Origin: Candidatus Bathyarchaeota archaeon
GTDB lineage: Archaea > Thermoproteota > Bathyarchaeia > RBG-16-48-13 > GCA-020345945
Direction: 5' to 3'
Assembly (NCBI GenBank): GCA_020345945.1
Contig: CP070773.1
Coordinates: forward strand, 1,084,314-1,095,441
DNA: 11,128 nucleotides
Positions 2,490 to 11,128 of the stretch are shown piece by piece. How positions within the stretch are numbered: the stretch's first letter is position 1; every line of letters starts with the position of its first letter. Under the pieces are notes generated by a model. The model was not told where the DNA came from. It did not search any database and saw only the letters and a list, made by a program, of their open reading frames with translations. The position numbers and the translations under genes were made by a program.

Positions 2490-2539
2490 CGCTGTCATCT
2501 TGATTCTTACGACATTATTCTTCCTGTTGTTTGGTTACG

Positions 2540-3787
2540 ATGAACTTCAAGCGTTTAAGCGATGAGTCCCTAATCATTGCTGTCGGTCTTCTTGCCCGTC
2601 TCCTTGTTTCTCCCTTCTTCGGTGACAGCTATGATGCTTGGGTTTGGCATGTTATCTCTTCTGCTTGGGTAAGACGCGGGATAAATCCTTACGACTATAA
2701 TTTCCATCACTCCAGATTGTATAATGATCCTTATTCCTACCCTATACCTTGGGCACTTCTCTGTGCAATAAGCTACTCTTTTTCAGGACCGATCCCTGCC
2801 AACGGGAATAGGGCCATTCTAGTTCTTCAGAAGATGCCGGTGATTTTCTCAGATATTCTTCTCGGAGTAATGTTAGGACGAATAGTCTTTGATGCCACCG
2901 GAAGTAGTAAGGCGAAGAAGATCGCGATGGCAGGGTACCTCCTTAATCCCTATACCTTTATGGGATCTGTGCTTTACTTTCAGTTTGATCCAGTGCCTGC
3001 TCTCTTTACTGTTTTGGCTCTCTACTTCTTCAAGAAGTCTGAGATCGAGCTTAGCGCTATCTCTTTAGGTATGGGTATTGCCTTCAAGATGTATCCCATA
3101 ATTCTTCTTCCTGTGTTTCTCGTATTCTTGAAGGAGAAAAGGTTGAATTTTCTTCTTCTCTCACTTCTTCCTATAGCTTTCTCTACTCTCCCATTTTTGG
3201 TGCTTAACTATTCACGCTTATCCCATGCCCTGTTCTACCAGAGTACTTGGAGTGGAAACTCTACCTATTGGCGTCTGATCTGGATGAGATTGGGTTTTGA
3301 GTACTATCCAAGAGGGGAGACTTCCCCACTTCTCGGACAAGTTACGATGCTGAATTCGATAATTGTGGCCTCTTCTCTTCTCCTTCTCTACATCTATCTC
3401 TCTAGACGTGTTGGCAAGATTTCTCTTGAACGTGGGATTCTCCTTGCCTTCTTGGTCTTCTTTACTACATATCGATTCATCCAAGATAATCATGCTATGT
3501 GGGCTATTCCGTTTGCAATATTGGATGGTATAATCAATGATAACCGGTTTGAACGTATCTGGTATCTCCCCCTCCTGTTTTATACAGGTACAAGATGGTT
3601 CTACTATCTTCTCTCCATTCCCGCTTGGCTTGGGGGATTCTATTACCTTGAACTCGTTTGGAGATGTCGAGACCTTACAATGTTTATAGCATTTCCTGCA
3701 TTCACATTCGCATATCTGGTAAACAGTCTTGTATCTATCGACGATTCTGCCTCACCTAAGATTCGCAATATTCTCCAAAAACCTTAA
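2540..3787 (+). CDS. GT-C-like polytopic membrane glycosyltransferase
   Basis: The 415-residue product is a hydrophobic protein with about 10-12 membrane segments (first near residues 10-27, then many between 66 and 225 and between 270 and 400). An acidic first loop, GDSYDAWVW (Asp29 and Asp32), follows the first helix, as in GT-C enzymes that use a polyprenyl-phosphate sugar and place catalytic acidic residues outside the membrane. YLLNPYTFMGSVLYFQFDP and GMGIAFKMYPIILLP resemble conserved segments of the PIG-M-like and GT87/DUF2029 mannosyltransferase groups. It probably adds a sugar to a lipid-linked or surface glycan; donor and acceptor are unknown. ATG 2540 is preferred to an in-frame TTG at 2531. 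It lies about 50 bases before metG. The membrane-enzyme call is firm, the subfamily is not. Confidence 0.75.
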   Translation: MNFKRLSDESLIIAVGLLARLLVSPFFGDSYDAWVWHVISSAWVRRGINPYDYNFHHSRLYNDPYSYPIPWALLCAISYSFSGPIPANGNRAILVLQKMPVIFSDILLGVMLGRIVFDATGSSKAKKIAMAGYLLNPYTFMGSVLYFQFDPVPALFTVLALYFFKKSEIELSAISLGMGIAFKMYPIILLPVFLVFLKEKRLNFLLLSLLPIAFSTLPFLVLNYSRLSHALFYQSTWSGNSTYWRLIWMRLGFEYYPRGETSPLLGQVTMLNSIIVASSLLLLYIYLSRRVGKISLERGILLAFLVFFTTYRFIQDNHAMWAIPFAILDGIINDNRFERIWYLPLLFYTGTRWFYYLLSIPAWLGGFYYLELVWRCRDLTMFIAFPAFTFAYLVNSLVSIDDSASPKIRNILQKP

Positions 3788-3789: not shown

Positions 3790-3840
3790 GTCTGACTTTC
3801 TCGTCTTCTTTTCCACGAGGAATCTTCAGGTAAGTTGGGG

Positions 3841-5862
3841 GTGTCAATTCTCGCAAGATATCTTGTTACTGCTGCTATTCCATATGCAAATGCTCCTCTT
3901 CACCTCGGTCATCTCAGGTCGACCTATATCCCGGCAGATATCTACGTAAGATACCTCCGGTTATATGGACATGATGCAATCTATGTTTGTGCGACAGATG
4001 AACATGGTACGCCTATAGCTATCAGGGCAGAGCAAGAGAAGTCCTCTCCCAGAAAGATCGTTGATAGGTATCACGCATCGATTCTCCAAGATCTGTTAGG
4101 AATGGGATGTTCCTTCGATATCTTCTCAAGAACGAGTACGTCAGTTCACAGGGAGTCTACCCAAGAGTTCTTCTCAAGGTTGTTGGAGAAAGGATACATC
4201 TACGAGTCGCAGTATGAGCAGCTCTTCTGCGAGAGCTGTAACCGTTTCTTGCCCGATCGGTATGTTGAGGGAACGTGTCCATACTGCGGTACTAAGGCGG
4301 CTCGTGGAGATGCTTGTGATGCCTGTGGACGCTACTTGAAACCGACGGATCTAGTGGATCCTTACTGTGTATTATGCGAGGGTCGGCCAGTTGTAAAAAC
4401 TTCTCGTCACTGGTTCTTCAAGCTCAGTGTCTTCCAGAAGGAGGTTAGGGACTGGGTATCTAAGAATCCTAATCTTCCGGGTAATGTGAAGAACTATGCT
4501 CTAAACTGGATAGACGAAGGATTGAGAGACTGGTGTATAACCCGTGACCTTTCTTGGGGAGTTCCGGTCCCAGCAGTAGATGTGAAAGACAAAGTTATCT
4601 ATGTCTGGTTTGATGCCCCTATCGGCTACCTCTCCTCTACAAAGATATGGGCGTCCAAGTCGGATGATCCTGAGAAATGGCGTGGTTACTGGAAGGATGA
4701 GAATAGTAAGATAATCCACTTCATTGGTAAGGACATAATCTATCATCACTCTATCTTTTGGCCTGCTATGTTGATGGGAGTTGGAGAATATTGTCTTCCT
4801 TTCGCGATCGTTGCCGGAGAGTATCTTACTCTCGAGGGGCGAAAGATGTCTAAGAGCCGAGGTTGGGTCGTTGGAGTATCGGATTATTTAGAAGACTTCG
4901 AACCTGATTCTTTGAGATACTATTTCATAGCTTCCTCCCCACTAGGAAAGGATGCAGATTTCTCTTGGGATGAATTTGCCCGTCGTCATAACAATGAGTT
5001 AGCAGACATCCTTGGTAACTTTGTTCATAGAGCTCTGGTATTCACCCATAGAGATTTTCAAGGAAAGGTTCCAGATCCTGGGGAGTTCGATCAATATGAC
5101 CAGAAAGTACTAGATAGAATCTCCGAGACCCAGTGTGAAGTAGCGGAAGCGATAGAATGTTTCAGTTTTCATAGCGCGTTAAGAACTGTTATGGATCTGG
5201 CATCTATAGGAAATAAGTACTTCAATGATAAGTCTCCTTGGATTACCGTCAAAGAGGACCCTCAGACCGCAAAGACGACAATATATGTAGCCAATCAAAT
5301 AGTCAAAGCCCTCTCTATTCTACTTGAACCATTCCTTCCCTTCACGGCGGAGAGGATCTGGGATACACTCGGTCTTGAGGGATCTGTACACGATCAGAAC
5401 TGGGATGATGCAATCTCTCCGCTTCCGTCAGGTCAACGAATAAACCCTCCAACTCCACTCTTCAAAAAACTTGACATGGAAAAAATCGAGGCTAAGAAGA
5501 TGAAACTACCGAAGTTGGATGAAGAAGACGATATTGCCGAAGTAACTATAGAAGAATTCGCAAAGTTAGATCTAAGAGTAGGCAGGATCCTCGAGGCGAA
5601 ACCCTTACCCTCCTCTGATGATCTAATCCATCTGACGATCGATTTGGGGAACGGCGTTGTTCGAGAATCTGTCTCCGGACTTCTTCCCCATTATACTCCT
5701 GAAGTTCTGAGAGGAAAGAGTGTTGTAGTTCTAGTCAATATAAGACCTACAAAGATTCTTGGTTCCATGTCAGAAGTTATGGTGCTTGCAGCCGTCGATG
5801 GGAAACAGTTGACTCTATTGATTCCTGATCGTCCTTCGGAGCCCGGCACCCATATCAAGTAA
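3841..5862 (+). CDS. metG: Methionyl-tRNA synthetase with fused C-terminal tRNA-binding domain
   Basis: This class I synthetase charges tRNA-Met for initiation and elongation. The Rossmann domain begins with RYLVTAAIPYANAPLHLGHL, where HLGH (residues 21-24) is the HIGH motif. The connective insertion carries four CxxC pairs (Cys130/133, 146/149, 159/162, 176/179), enough for two zinc knuckles as in archaeal-type MetG. KMSKS is present from Lys335. An alpha-helical anticodon domain follows. Residues about 570-673 form an EMAP-II/Trbp111-like OB fold (KLDLRVGRILEAK, later NIRPTKILGSMSEVM), which is a separate gene in some archaea. Start GTG 3841 gives the usual short N-terminus; an in-frame TTG at 3835 is possible. 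At 673 residues the protein is full length with all key motifs intact. Confidence 0.97.
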   Translation: MSILARYLVTAAIPYANAPLHLGHLRSTYIPADIYVRYLRLYGHDAIYVCATDEHGTPIAIRAEQEKSSPRKIVDRYHASILQDLLGMGCSFDIFSRTSTSVHRESTQEFFSRLLEKGYIYESQYEQLFCESCNRFLPDRYVEGTCPYCGTKAARGDACDACGRYLKPTDLVDPYCVLCEGRPVVKTSRHWFFKLSVFQKEVRDWVSKNPNLPGNVKNYALNWIDEGLRDWCITRDLSWGVPVPAVDVKDKVIYVWFDAPIGYLSSTKIWASKSDDPEKWRGYWKDENSKIIHFIGKDIIYHHSIFWPAMLMGVGEYCLPFAIVAGEYLTLEGRKMSKSRGWVVGVSDYLEDFEPDSLRYYFIASSPLGKDADFSWDEFARRHNNELADILGNFVHRALVFTHRDFQGKVPDPGEFDQYDQKVLDRISETQCEVAEAIECFSFHSALRTVMDLASIGNKYFNDKSPWITVKEDPQTAKTTIYVANQIVKALSILLEPFLPFTAERIWDTLGLEGSVHDQNWDDAISPLPSGQRINPPTPLFKKLDMEKIEAKKMKLPKLDEEDDIAEVTIEEFAKLDLRVGRILEAKPLPSSDDLIHLTIDLGNGVVRESVSGLLPHYTPEVLRGKSVVVLVNIRPTKILGSMSEVMVLAAVDGKQLTLLIPDRPSEPGTHIK

Positions 5863-7376: not shown

Positions 7377-8681
7377 TTATGCTAGTTTGGGGTGTTCACC
7401 CAAGAGATGGAAGGTTTTGGCGTCATAGATTCTGATATTCAAGAACTCTCCCAGATTTCGTTTCTCACGTATTACTACTGGTCGGTATGCAGTATTCCTG
7501 CCTATACAGGACCCGTTTGGGCCTATCTCGTCGAGGAGTATTTCCCCCTGCCAACCTATCCATTTACGGTTTCGAGTCAAGGAGATGCCTCTGAAGAGAT
7601 TTGTGAGAAGTCGACTACGCTTCTTCTTCTCAGATGCAGGTACCTCTCTTCTATCTATTCTAGGTGTCTCTGGTCTTGGGAAGAATCTTGATATGTTTAG
7701 GACATCTGGTTCTACTTCTCTCAGTAGCTGAAGTGTGTTCTCGAAGGCTTTCTCGTCTTCCCCTGGGAATCCGCAGATTACATCTGTTGCTATCGTGATT
7801 CTTTCGATCTTTTCTCTGAATGTGGAGACGATCTGTTTGAAATCATCTGTAGAGTAGGATCTGTTCATATATTCTAATATTCTGTCGTCGCCACTCTGTA
7901 CAGGTACATGCAGAAACTTGAAGATCTTGCTGTTGTTGAAGGCGTCCACTAGTTCATTCTGAACCTTCAAGATATGTTGAGGGTTAATCATTCCAACTCT
8001 GACTTTGAATCTTCCATCTATCTCTGAGATTCTAGTGAGCAAATCTGGGAGCGTTTCTCTATTGTCGAACCCATAGCATCCAAGGTCTTGTCCAGTTAGC
8101 CAGATCTCTTTAGTTCCATTCTCAACATCTCTGGCGACACGAGTTACGATCTCCTTGATAGGATAACTTCTCAATGTACCCCTTGCTGCCTTGACGCAGC
8201 AGTAACTACAATCACCGAGACAACCGTATGAGATCGGTACGACGCTGATGAGTTGACCTGGTTTTGGGTTTGGAAGAAGAGGTTCCAAGTCTTGCTGAAC
8301 CGTGATTCTTGATGTCTTTGAGCCCTTTTTTATCCCCGAAAGGATGTGAAGTATTTCTGAACCTGTAGATGGTCCAGATATACCCGAGAAGTTAACCTCC
8401 CTCTTTAATCTCTTCAAATTGATCTTCGGGAGGCAACCTGTGATGACTAGATTCTTGGAGTCTGGAATTCTCTTCAGCAGGTCTATCATCCGGTTTTCTG
8501 TAGGAGTCTTTACTGCACATGTATTGTATATCAAGAAATCCGCAGAGGAAGGATTCTGAGATATCTGGTATCCTGCTTCTACAAGAGCTCTCTCCATGAA
8601 CCTTGCATCTGCAAGATTAGATGGACAGCCGAAACTTCTTATGAATACTCTCTCTGCTAGGTTTTGTTTTTCCCTCTTCAA
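7377..8681 (-). CDS. tRNA-t6A37 methylthiotransferase, MTAB family
   Basis: This radical-SAM enzyme converts t6A37 in certain tRNAs to the 2-methylthio form, tuning decoding of ANN codons. The 434-residue protein has three domains: an N-terminal UPF0004 domain with cluster cysteines 19, 55 and 83 (FGCPSN, YNTCAVKTPTENR, ITGCLPK); a radical-SAM barrel with CLGDCSYC (Cys154, 158, 161) and VIWLTGQD-like segment EIWLTGQDLGCYG; and a TRAM RNA-binding domain from about 376 (GWQGEILLDEIGPNG ... YRPVV). Domain order and length match the archaeal/eukaryal e-MtaB (CDKAL1-like) group. TTG 8681 is the only reasonable start, since an in-frame TAG lies just upstream; GTGAG precedes it. It follows the MoaD-like gene by 18 bases, so the two are probably cotranscribed. 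No key residue is missing. Confidence 0.93.
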   Translation of the reverse strand: MKREKQNLAERVFIRSFGCPSNLADARFMERALVEAGYQISQNPSSADFLIYNTCAVKTPTENRMIDLLKRIPDSKNLVITGCLPKINLKRLKREVNFSGISGPSTGSEILHILSGIKKGSKTSRITVQQDLEPLLPNPKPGQLISVVPISYGCLGDCSYCCVKAARGTLRSYPIKEIVTRVARDVENGTKEIWLTGQDLGCYGFDNRETLPDLLTRISEIDGRFKVRVGMINPQHILKVQNELVDAFNNSKIFKFLHVPVQSGDDRILEYMNRSYSTDDFKQIVSTFREKIERITIATDVICGFPGEDEKAFENTLQLLREVEPDVLNISRFFPRPETPRIDRREVPASEKKKRSRLLTNLFRGISLTRNRKWIGWQGEILLDEIGPNGSCIGRNTAYRPVVIREKRNLGEFLNIRIYDAKTFHLLGEHPKLA

Positions 8682-8699
8682 GATCTATCTCACTTATTT

Positions 8700-8984
8700 C
8701 TATGTGCCACCTCCGACAGGTGGAACTATTGCTAGTGTGGATTCGGCATCTAACTCTGTATCAAATCCATCAAGCATCAGAATATTCGTTCCGTCAAGTA
8801 GGATCTGGATGTGGCTTCTTAATCCTTCTTTCTCGAATAGATAGTTTGAGAACTCATCTCCGTATCTTTCTGACAACAGATTCAGAATCTCTCTTACCTT
8901 CATCTTTTCTTCAACGATAAGATCCTCTTCTCTTTTTTGAGTAATTTCACGAAGAACCGTGAAGTATCTTACCTTGATTTTCAT
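8700..8984 (-). CDS. MoaD/ThiS-family ubiquitin-like protein
   Basis: A 94-residue beta-grasp protein. It starts MKIKVRYFTVLREITQKREE and ends AIVPPVGGGT, both typical of MoaD-like sulfur carriers and archaeal SAMPs, which are adenylated at a C-terminal diglycine and then carry a thiocarboxylate or are joined to proteins. Here the glycines (91-93) are followed by one extra Thr94, so the exposed Gly-Gly end may need trimming. AGGAG at 8998-8994 with a 9-base spacer fixes the ATG at 8984. It is the first gene of a likely operon with the MTAB methylthiotransferase, so it may supply sulfur for tRNA work, for molybdopterin synthesis, or as a modifier. No moaE or E1-like gene is visible nearby. Confidence 0.85.
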   Translation of the reverse strand: MKIKVRYFTVLREITQKREEDLIVEEKMKVREILNLLSERYGDEFSNYLFEKEGLRSHIQILLDGTNILMLDGFDTELDAESTLAIVPPVGGGT

Positions 8985-8998: not shown

Positions 8999-9152
8999 AT
9001 TAAGATACTATTCAAACGAAGGTCATCTCGACTCTCTGGTTTAGTTAGATCAGTAAGCACTAATATTGACGTGTCGTTAGAGTCATAAGAGCTGATGTCA
9101 AGAGTAGTTGTTAATCCTTCCTCTACTAAGTCTAGCTCTATTCCAAAGAAGT

Positions 9153-9158
9153 GGTGAG
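9153..9158 (+). promoter_or_regulatory. Shine-Dalgarno GGTGAG that sets the acyltransferase start
   Basis: GGTGAG lies 6 bases before ATG 9165, an ideal distance. It argues against the longer open frame from 9108, whose extra 19 residues do not belong to the hexapeptide fold. Confidence 0.65.
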
Positions 9159-9164
9159 TCTGAT

Positions 9165-9941
9165 ATGCCTGATATTCATCCTTCAGCTTTTGTTGATCCT
9201 TCCGCCAAGATCCCGGAGAGTTGTCTGATAGGCCCTAATGTACGGCTCGTTGGTGCGATGAAACTAGGGAACTTTGTTAAGGTATCAGCGAATACAATCG
9301 TCTGGGGTTCTGCAGAGATTGGAGAAATGACATACTTGGGCCCTAACTGTCTAGTAGGTCACCCAGGCAAAGATGAATTCAATAAATCTCTGGATAGGAA
9401 TAATCTCGATCTCACTGGACCTAAAAATGCGATCACAAGAATCGGTCGAGAGGTGATTGTCAGATCAAACTGCACAATATACTCTAGATCCACAATTGGT
9501 GATAGCGTAGTCTTTGGTCATAACGTATTACTGAGGGAAGAGACTACGATAGGCGACAGGAGTACTATTGGTAGTAGTGTTGTCATAGATGGAAGATGCC
9601 TCATAGGTGAAGGAGTATCTATTCAGACTGGAGCCTACATTCCATCATCTTCAGAGATCGGAGACTCGGTCTTCCTAGGTCCCCACTGTATTCTACTGAA
9701 CGATAAGTATGTCTCAAGGAAGAAGACCAGACTTGTAGGACCAACAATAGGAAAAGGAGCGAGTATTGGTGGTGGAGCGATAATCCTCCCTGGTGTAGTA
9801 ATAGGGAAAGACGCCGTTGTCGGGGCAGGTGCTGTGGTAACGAAAGATGTGAAAGATCAAACTGTAGTCATTGGGGTTCCAGCGAGATTTCTAAAAACCA
9901 TACCGGAAGATTGGTCTAGATCTTCTGAACCAATCCTTTAG
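9165..9941 (+). CDS. Left-handed beta-helix (hexapeptide) acyltransferase
   Basis: The 258-residue protein is built from repeated [LIV]-G-x4 hexapeptides, from MPDIHPSAFVDPSAKIP through the end of the coil at IGVPARFL. These proteins trimerise and transfer acetyl or other acyl groups from CoA, often to nucleotide sugars. The segment ILLNDKY...GPTIGKGASIGGGAI resembles sugar N-acetyltransferases of the WbpD/NeuD type, and VVGAGAVVTKDV is the usual closing coil. A loop around DRNNLDLTGPKN breaks the coil and may shape the active site. Start ATG 9165 is chosen because of GGTGAG six bases upstream. The ribophorin I-like gene follows after 224 bases on the same strand, so a role in surface sugar or N-glycan synthesis is attractive but not shown. 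The acceptor is unknown. Confidence 0.87.
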   Translation: MPDIHPSAFVDPSAKIPESCLIGPNVRLVGAMKLGNFVKVSANTIVWGSAEIGEMTYLGPNCLVGHPGKDEFNKSLDRNNLDLTGPKNAITRIGREVIVRSNCTIYSRSTIGDSVVFGHNVLLREETTIGDRSTIGSSVVIDGRCLIGEGVSIQTGAYIPSSSEIGDSVFLGPHCILLNDKYVSRKKTRLVGPTIGKGASIGGGAIILPGVVIGKDAVVGAGAVVTKDVKDQTVVIGVPARFLKTIPEDWSRSSEPIL

Positions 9942-10089: not shown

Positions 10090-10126
10090 ATGTCAACGCT
10101 ATTCGAGAGTGGTAAGGGTTCTCCTA

Positions 10127-10165: not shown

Positions 10166-11128
10166 ATGATAGATTTGTATGCGAAGGGTCTAAGCACTCA
10201 TTTCAGCTTATTGCTTCTATTTCTGCTTCTATTCTCCTTTATGCCCAGCGTCTATGGTCAGACTGTCAAAACCAATAGTCCTTTGGCAGATGATGAATCC
10301 GAACCTGTAGAGGCGCCTATAACTGATTTGGAGTGCGACAGGGCCAAGAGGAAAATCGAGTTGGGTGCTTGGGGTATGATACATGTTCATGACGAATTCC
10401 ATGTTTCAAATCCAACGCCTATTCCTATCGATTCTGTAACGCTCTCTCTACCTTTGAATTCTCAGAATGTCACGGCATCTGATATTGCTGGACCTGTAGA
10501 TGTGTTTCTTCCATCAAGGCTAGAAGATCTAGCTCCGAGAGCAATTGTATATTTTAGGTTGAACCTTGGAGAGAATGAATCTTATACCTTCTCGATTCAT
10601 TTCAAGATTCCAGCAAGCAAAAATATCGAACTCTTGGGTTTTGATCTCTATCAGTTCGAGTTTCCTATGGTCCCTGGTTTGGGGTCATCCATTAAGACAT
10701 TACTTGTCGAAGTGGTTCTTCCAGAAGGTGCGAGTCTTAAGGAGGAAGATGTCTCTCCATCTCCCTTAGAGGTTGGGGAGGAGGTATTCAGGAAGAAAGC
10801 TGTCTTTATGATTGATGATGCGAGGTTCGAGAACAACCGGAAACTTACATTGCCGTATAGATATCTCATCACTTTGTCGGCTTTTCGACCAACTCTTTGG
10901 GTTGGATTGGCGTTAGCATCAATAATTACTACGAGACGGATCCTACGAATAGCTAAGTTTGAGTCTCAACGGATTCCCCTTCCAGCGGATCTGATTCGTT
11001 CCTTCGTTGATGCAATGGATGAAAGAATATCGCTTAAGGCTGAACTTTCTTCTCTTGGGGATCGAGTTGAGTCTAGGGAGATACCAAAGCGTGTATACAG
11101 AAGACGCAGCCGAACAATTGAAAGACAA
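10166..11128 (+). CDS. Ribophorin I (OST1)-like membrane protein, 3'-truncated
   Basis: An open frame of 321 codons runs off the window end. Residues 1-31 form a signal peptide with a leucine/phenylalanine core ending SVYG. The ectodomain (about 32-235) looks beta-rich and has two N-glycosylation sequons, Asn101 (NVT) and Asn137 (NES). One membrane helix lies near 239-257, followed by basic residues (TTRRILRIAK) and a charged helix-forming tail. Several short stretches match what I recall of human ribophorin I in the same order: IELGAWGMIHVHDEF, VEVVLPEGA, the membrane helix, and a DAMDERISLKAEL-like helix. In eukaryotes this subunit of the oligosaccharyltransferase presents substrates to STT3. 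Only the part matching the membrane-near half of the eukaryotic ectodomain is present. ATG 10166 gives a clean signal peptide; TTG 10145 and GTG 10109 are in frame. Homology is inferred from memory, not from a search. Confidence 0.7.
   Translation, partial: MIDLYAKGLSTHFSLLLLFLLLFSFMPSVYGQTVKTNSPLADDESEPVEAPITDLECDRAKRKIELGAWGMIHVHDEFHVSNPTPIPIDSVTLSLPLNSQNVTASDIAGPVDVFLPSRLEDLAPRAIVYFRLNLGENESYTFSIHFKIPASKNIELLGFDLYQFEFPMVPGLGSSIKTLLVEVVLPEGASLKEEDVSPSPLEVGEEVFRKKAVFMIDDARFENNRKLTLPYRYLITLSAFRPTLWVGLALASIITTRRILRIAKFESQRIPLPADLIRSFVDAMDERISLKAELSSLGDRVESREIPKRVYRRRSRTIERQ

Follow-up and report, generated by a model that had tools for sequence, protein, structure and literature searches.

A ribophorin I (OST1) homologue with a single ectodomain in Bathyarchaeia

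The window (the whole analysed stretch of 11,128 nucleotides) ends in a gene for a homologue of OST1 (ribophorin I). From sequence comparison, with good confidence, we regard its product as a bathyarchaeal OST1 that combines a membrane-near ectodomain, one membrane helix and a cytosolic helical bundle, that would likely act as an accessory subunit of oligosaccharyltransferase (OST), the machinery that glycosylates new proteins, and that has probably lost the membrane-distal domain. An Asgard setting, which the sequence-only reading of the window had evoked, is rejected: the genome is that of a bathyarchaeon, from the order of Bathyarchaeota archaeon RBG_16_48_13. The methionyl-tRNA synthetase encoded in the window is 56% identical to that of the latter organism, the best of four named matches, the other three (Methanomethylicota/Methanomethyliaceae) being at 53–54%. 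The RBG_16_48_13 genome corresponds to G548, a member of the window's order, by the identity of 500 bases of its contig, and G001, from the same class, encodes a protein assigned by NCBI to a Candidatus Bathyarchaeia archaeon. Bathyarchaeia belong to TACK.

Gene and protein layout

The following features were assigned to the gene.

10166..11128, forward strand: OST1 (ribophorin I) homologue with a single ectodomain; 321 of about 411 residues, 3' end missing
10166..10258, forward strand: signal peptide; hydrophobic maximum 2.01, residues 4–34; cleavage near residue 31, by inspection
10259..10333, forward strand: short linker at the site of the first ectodomain (about 180–200 residues) of long relatives, from family alignment A2
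10334..10873, forward strand: membrane-near ectodomain, the second OST1 domain, holding RKIELGAWGMIHVHDEF and VEVVLPEGA; from alignments and profile matches
10883..10939, forward strand: single transmembrane segment with a conserved FRPTLW motif just before it; from alignment and hydropathy
10940..11128, forward strand: cytosolic helical tail, first 63 of about 150 residues; the rest lost at the contig end

The reading frame starts with the ATG at 10166, with an in-frame GTG alternative at 10109, and is open at the window end. The Kyte-Doolittle maximum is 2.01 at the N-terminus and 1.38 in the weakly hydrophobic membrane segment around FRPTLWVGLALASIIT; the ectodomain spans approximately residues 57–236, and the tail is net-basic (+5 over 63 residues). 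Hydropathy and alignment agree on a type I topology, i.e., signal peptide, ectodomain, one membrane helix and basic cytosolic tail, which is the layout that the sequence-only reading had described. Nine of the other 11 clade members have the signal peptide as well; it is cut short in P0012 and not included in P0009. Of the two similar lumenal beta domains of a canonical OST1, the protein has the second only, and on its sequence it is classed as a reduced variant. The cytosolic four-helix bundle is matched in a solved structure (8whn) by the clade profile, while the window sequence itself stops inside the bundle.

The window is exactly one contig, with 100 N before it (G000:C1:1084214-1084313) and 100 N after it. 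Because the contig ends inside the gene, the last approximately 90 codons are missing, and no continuation of the tail was seen by eye in the three forward frames of the next contig. The assembly amounts to 1.19 Mb and is 66% complete. Stretches L001, L114, L116, and L117 of the same sequence (G000:C1) also consist of contigs joined by runs of exactly 100 N, hence neighbours across gaps need not be true neighbours. The window has no tRNA or Rfam matches, and the repeats near the OST1 gene are short ones only.

Homology to ribophorin I

A search of 5.8 billion proteins found 14, the window's own included. The 11 other clusters of the window clade are 60–89% identical to the window protein, aligned along its length, and have 393–449 residues, except for P0009 (372, with a late start). 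Two further proteins of 520 residues show 29–30% identity to the window protein and score 52 bits with PF04597, the ribophorin I family of Pfam. The latter is the sole Pfam family matched by the window frame at E ≤ 1 (residues 140–193, profile positions 307–361). A PF04597 search had been proposed as a check of the sequence-only reading, and it gave significant matches for the family, whereas the window protein alone, with 321 of its approximately 411 residues present, stayed at 15.8 bits, below the cut-off of 25. The cut-off is passed by relatives, namely P0009 (25.1 bits), L066 (63), L062 (66.2), and P0135 (62.5). All 12 members of the window clade, window included, match at E ≤ 0.1; of the 33 members of the family profile A2, 22 match at E ≤ 0.001, and 11, including the window and L025, fall short.

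No solved OST1 chain was found with the window sequence alone; the homology to these chains is seen at the family level. The window protein matches L066, a short form from the same order, at 7e-50, and L066 alone finds the OST1 of the archaeon MK-D1 (8whn, 4.7e-9), human RPN1 (2.6e-6), and yeast Ost1 (4.3e-4). Profile A2 matches human RPN1 over residues 35–582 at 4.1e-22, 8whn at 7.2e-17, and yeast Ost1 at 1.1e-8. The window-clade profile, A5, matches 8whn at 1.6e-8 and human RPN1 not at all at E ≤ 10. In the alignment of the family profile with human RPN1, the segment pairs compared in the sequence-only reading, IELGAWGMIHVHDEF/IEVSHWGNIAVEENV and VEVVLPEGA/VKIILPEGA, fall in the same columns. 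The sequence-only claim of a ribophorin I homologue is borne out.

A chance test was run on human RPN1 from its second domain to residue 582 and on the printed MK-D1 tail, with 1000 shuffles each. The window sequence scored 4.5 bits against the human protein (5 of 1000 shuffles as high, the best at 11.4) and 4.6 bits against the MK-D1 tail (7 of 1000, the best at 9.5). For profiles, the human scores exceeded the best shuffle in each case: 12.0 vs. 8.2 bits for the window clade, 31.5 vs. 7.4 for profile A1, and 71.4 vs. 7.1 for A2. On the MK-D1 tail the three profiles scored 36.4, 53.5, and 65.6 bits, respectively, with no shuffle as high. The reversed tail still scores 11.3, 16.7, and 9.2 bits, and hence coiled-coil background accounts for some of the tail signal. 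The tail charge in the window clade, from +1 to +9, lies below the +11 of the printed MK-D1 stretch. A search of the genome contigs with profile A1 found no relative.

The Pfam family GvpG (gas vesicle) scores over its cut-off of 30.6 bits on three OST1 tails (36.5 for L066, 36.5 for P0135, and 31.8 for P0140) and is a likely source of misannotation.

Comparison with known OST1 proteins

One of the closest described counterparts is OST1 of the Lokiarchaeon MK-D1 (Ca. Prometheoarchaeum syntrophicum; cytosolic domain PDB 8whn; PMC11417166), an archaeal protein with a signal peptide, an ectodomain and a cytosolic bundle, whose helical tail is homologous to those of the bathyarchaeal proteins (profile matches from 1.6e-8 to 7e-17). 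The two organisms differ in lineage, the window coming from a bathyarchaeon. The MK-D1 ectodomain construct described in PMC11417166 has 393 residues (33–425), about twice the window ectodomain, and MK-D1 OST1 probably has two ectodomains. In human RPN1 (6s7o_E, 8b6l) and yeast Ost1 (6c26_1), the second ectodomain, the membrane segment and, in the human protein, the tail are collinear with the family profile; the yeast chain, with 476 residues, stops shortly beyond the membrane segment. Both have two lumenal domains, as a passage of a review states for yeast (two similar ones; PMC7226087), whereas the window form is without domain 1. Long OST1 proteins of Bathyarchaeia, e.g., L064, L067, and P0140, have the same locus in the order and the same second domain, membrane motif and tail as the window form, but carry an extra first ectodomain, most of them having 560–630 residues. 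CdvA-like and other coiled-coil proteins resemble the tail only, and weakly, with no match to the ectodomain or the membrane segment.

Genomic context

Three neighbours of the gene recur in related genomes.

3835..5862, forward strand: methionyl-tRNA synthetase; recurs in 4 of 6 same-order stretches
7377..8681, reverse strand: tRNA t6A methylthiotransferase; conserved neighbour in 5 of 6 same-order stretches
9108..9941, forward strand: hexapeptide acyltransferase; NeuD-type as the best NCBIfam match, under the cut-off of that model; immediately upstream of OST1

Each of the six same-order loci keeps parts of the order methionyl-tRNA synthetase, methylthiotransferase, hexapeptide transferase, OST1; besides the four stretches that include the synthetase, a fifth locus has it beyond the edge of the stretch, some 5 kb away from OST1. 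In the window and at four of the six loci (two of them from one genus), the hexapeptide transferase immediately precedes OST1. At these four loci OST1 is long in three cases (two of one genus) and short in one (L066).

Several other genes were recorded. A GT-C-like membrane protein at 2531-3787 of the window scores 33.7 bits with PIG-U (cut-off 24.5) and has sub-cut-off similarity to GT87; PIG-U is a subunit of the eukaryotic GPI transamidase. A small MoaD/ubiquitin-like modifier is encoded at 8700-8984 (66 bits vs. the SAMP1 cut-off of 60). In families f3, f6, and f7 (L068, L069, L070, L073, L074, L076, L077), a small similar gene adjoins OST1 or lies near it, and the three tested belong to DUF2095 by Pfam.

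Distribution in Bathyarchaeia

Profile searches found OST1 homologues in 203 of the 256 genomes of the class, and in 107 of the 120 of good quality; in four genomes (G499, G524, G536, G537), the matches are only at 1e-9 to 1e-4. Matches to STT3 occur in 226 of 256 genomes, a false match in the window's own genome counted. Thus 53 genomes have no OST1 match and 30 no STT3 match. Among the matches listed, OST1 is mostly an open frame of 560–630 residues that matches the profile from its start, and among those listed with a source name the homologues are called hypothetical (with 120 of 367 and 19 of 19 rows listed). The short form was observed in at least 10 genomes from five families (G000, G547, G364, G344, G507, G508, G372, G384, G446, G035), and five further proteins near L066 are of the same short length, 405–408 residues. 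A phylum-wide tally (150/398) was set aside, as many hits of 250–280 residues match the coiled-coil tail only, as CdvA-like proteins would; such coiled-coil hits probably inflate this number.

In the debate over how the eukaryotic translocon arose, archaeal OST1 figures chiefly as a trait of Asgards. Its presence in Asgards is known from PMC10307638, PMC8813620, PMC11417166, and PMC8993221, the last of which remains doubtful of a role in N-glycosylation as long as none is demonstrated. A single sentence in PMC11417166 places OST1 also in TACK archaea; an earlier study had no archaeal OST1 candidate (PMC4973528). Neither bathyarchaeal OST1 nor a single-ectodomain form is described in the open-licence text excerpts that were searched. 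With homologues, mostly two-domain ones, in 203 of the 256 genomes of a single TACK class, the protein cannot alone mark Asgard–eukaryote kinship.

Absence of the first ectodomain

In long forms the first and second ectodomains match as repeats (3.6e-11, at 97% probability, in a profile comparison). The window protein has kept the second, which aligns with second domains of long forms down to 4e-29 and with first domains at 1.7e-5 at best. A search with 44 first-domain sequences (tblastn) found no remnant upstream of the window gene, in accord with the sequence-only claim that the first half of the eukaryotic ectodomain is missing. All five same-order long forms tested match the first-domain profile (174–221 bits), four of them being training rows of this profile and L065 (214 bits) not; P0140, P0141, and P0142, also outside the training rows, score 131–156 bits. 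Outside the class, where proteins were picked among hits with open frames longer than 415 residues, the profile matches 11 of 12 tested proteins (1e-20 to 6e-6), the exception being L097 (0.3), and 19 such proteins have the membrane segment at about residue 360–414, with room for two domains. Against human RPN1 the first-domain profile alone reaches only 0.0056, in scattered pieces, and hence the archaeal–human homology of first domains rests on the collinear full-length match.

In phylogenetic trees, built from shared columns only and on selected proteins, short forms are nested among long ones. The 62-row tree has four changes between short and long forms, each of them required by well-supported branches. 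When 16 long proteins of other classes serve as outgroup (67 rows; eight near-duplicates dropped, 12 of the 19 extracted other-class proteins used), there are five changes, at least three of them forced, the root of this tree being weak (58/27). Three changes are forced both in a 56-row tree, from which eleven long-branch rows including one short form (L014) were dropped, and in a 43-row tree centred on the order; in these two no single branch sets the outgroup apart. Long-branch warnings apply to the trees, and near-duplicates (e.g., L005, L019, L021, L065) and fragments (L071, L072, L078) were left out of all of them. A single clade of all 21 short forms is rejected (p-AU 6.3e-93). In the window's order, the 17 short forms make up one clade (97/92), whose sister is the pair of long forms P0140 and P0141 (96/84). 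Forced changes may be gains or losses and are read here as losses. Since relatives from the same order have both domains and the short forms nest among long ones, the missing domain is taken as derived, i.e., probably a later loss and not an ancestral state.

Two OST1 homologues, L018:1018-2559 and L022:1498-3060, have a different first part, to which the first-domain profile has no match (3.4 and 1.5 bits, respectively); residues 1–161 of L018 have no Pfam match. By sequence, the first domain seems to have been replaced in both.

Partner subunits and proposed role

The sequence-only reading had suggested looking for STT3/AglB and OST3/6 in the same genome, and neither turned up in the 66%-complete assembly: a PF02516 search and an STT3 query from an order-mate found no canonical STT3, and PF04756 (OST3/6) had no match. 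The candidate at C1:825211 (33 bits with PF02516) was rejected as STT3, being a 533-residue GT-C protein without the WWD motif. Eight of the 11 other genomes of the order have an STT3 match, and the order-mate G547 combines a short OST1 with a canonical STT3 of 684 residues containing WWDYG. Some genomes, such as the four of f2 g18, have STT3 without OST1, and OST1 is thus not obligatory for STT3. PF04756 is matched in 7 of the 12 genomes of the order, in six of them by proteins of 141–164 residues hit in the N-terminal part, which we take to be thioredoxin-like; bacterial controls match too. PF05251 (Ost5) matches nowhere, controls included, and is therefore uninformative.

A lead towards an OST3/6-like subunit comes from another genome of the order, G545, where a membrane protein of 184 residues with a weak match to the OST3/6 C-terminal part (0.0012) is encoded divergently beside STT3. 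Matches to it occur in 11 of the 12 genomes of the order, G545 itself and that of the window (6.4e-24) included; the matching part of the window's copy finds nothing in PF04756 at E ≤ 1. From these sequence matches and its position, the protein is a possible OST3/6-like subunit.

L114:10031-10510 (match at G000:C1:322159-322494): small membrane protein, OST3/6-like candidate, window genome
L112:2977-3531: small membrane protein, OST3/6-like candidate, beside STT3 in G545

If the role of OST1 has been kept by descent, the signal peptide would direct the ectodomain to the outer face of the cell membrane. There it would pack against STT3/AglB, close to where newly translocated chains emerge, anchored by the membrane helix, while the cytosolic bundle would hold or approach the translating ribosome, with N-glycosylation coupled to translocation. 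Pull-down experiments reported in PMC11417166 had the human and MK-D1 OST1 tails binding human ribosomes. The membrane-distal first domain may have been dispensable for this core role and deleted in the window lineage. What the sequences show directly is the homology, the architecture, the conserved locus and the nested position of short forms; the loss as the direction of change, membership of an OST complex, contact with the ribosome and a part in glycosylation are inferred.

Alternative explanations bear on the homology, on the missing domain and on the function. A chance resemblance, with an unrelated beta-rich membrane protein happening to carry a coiled-coil tail, could appeal to the window protein alone, which is equalled in score by some shuffles and retrieves no solved OST1 chain; it is highly improbable and, on sequence grounds, already refuted by the chain of matches that leads from the window protein through L066 to PF04597, human RPN1 and 8whn. 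Even less credit, practically none, can be given to an assembly or gene-calling artefact as the cause of the missing domain. The contig does end inside the gene, in a genome with contigs joined by 100 N, but only the 3' end is affected; upstream there is no first-domain remnant, nine of the other 11 clusters of the clade show this short start in full, and the short length recurs in five more proteins close to L066. For the N-terminal side, this reading is already refuted.

A "simpler ancestral form", as the sequence-only reading had put it, would mean that the single-domain OST1 came first and the two-domain form arose by a later duplication. The repeat relationship of the two ectodomains does require a single-domain ancestor at some time, and trees by themselves cannot separate gain from loss. 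Against this stand the two domains of the yeast (PMC7226087) and human proteins, the first-domain matches both in other classes and in the same order (L065, P0140, P0141, P0142; 131–214 bits), the prevalence of long forms in the class, the gene locus shared by short and long forms, and the nesting of short forms, with at least three or four changes forced and long proteins as sisters of the window's short clade; we consider the ancestral reading very improbable. Somewhat less remote, yet still unlikely, is that the protein descends from OST1 but no longer serves OST, having become a coiled-coil-tailed membrane protein, e.g., for envelope or division scaffolding. The weak matches of the tail to tropomyosin, GvpG and CdvA-like proteins, the failure to find a canonical STT3 in the window assembly and the STT3-bearing genomes without OST1 would fit such a use. 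On the other side, the clade tail matches the MK-D1 bundle over 140 residues almost without gaps, at 1.6e-8 vs. 0.0056 for the best tropomyosin, and the order-mate with a short OST1 keeps its canonical STT3. An accessory OST subunit is thus the preferred reading.

A broader proposal, which we hold tentatively and at somewhat less than even weight, is that a multi-subunit, ribosome-docking OST of STT3, OST1 and an OST3/6-like protein may be old in Thermoproteota instead of having been invented by Asgards or eukaryotes. OST1 of Bathyarchaeia would then be modular, its distal domain apparently lost on three or more occasions and replaced on one, and the short form would be a natural minimal OST1 that keeps only the parts on the STT3 and ribosome side. 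The repeated absence of one domain provides natural truncations for asking what each domain of OST1 does.

The OST1 homologues L086–L090, from family f20 of another class, have 416–445 residues, with the membrane segment at about residue 371–376 and only a short cytosolic tail.
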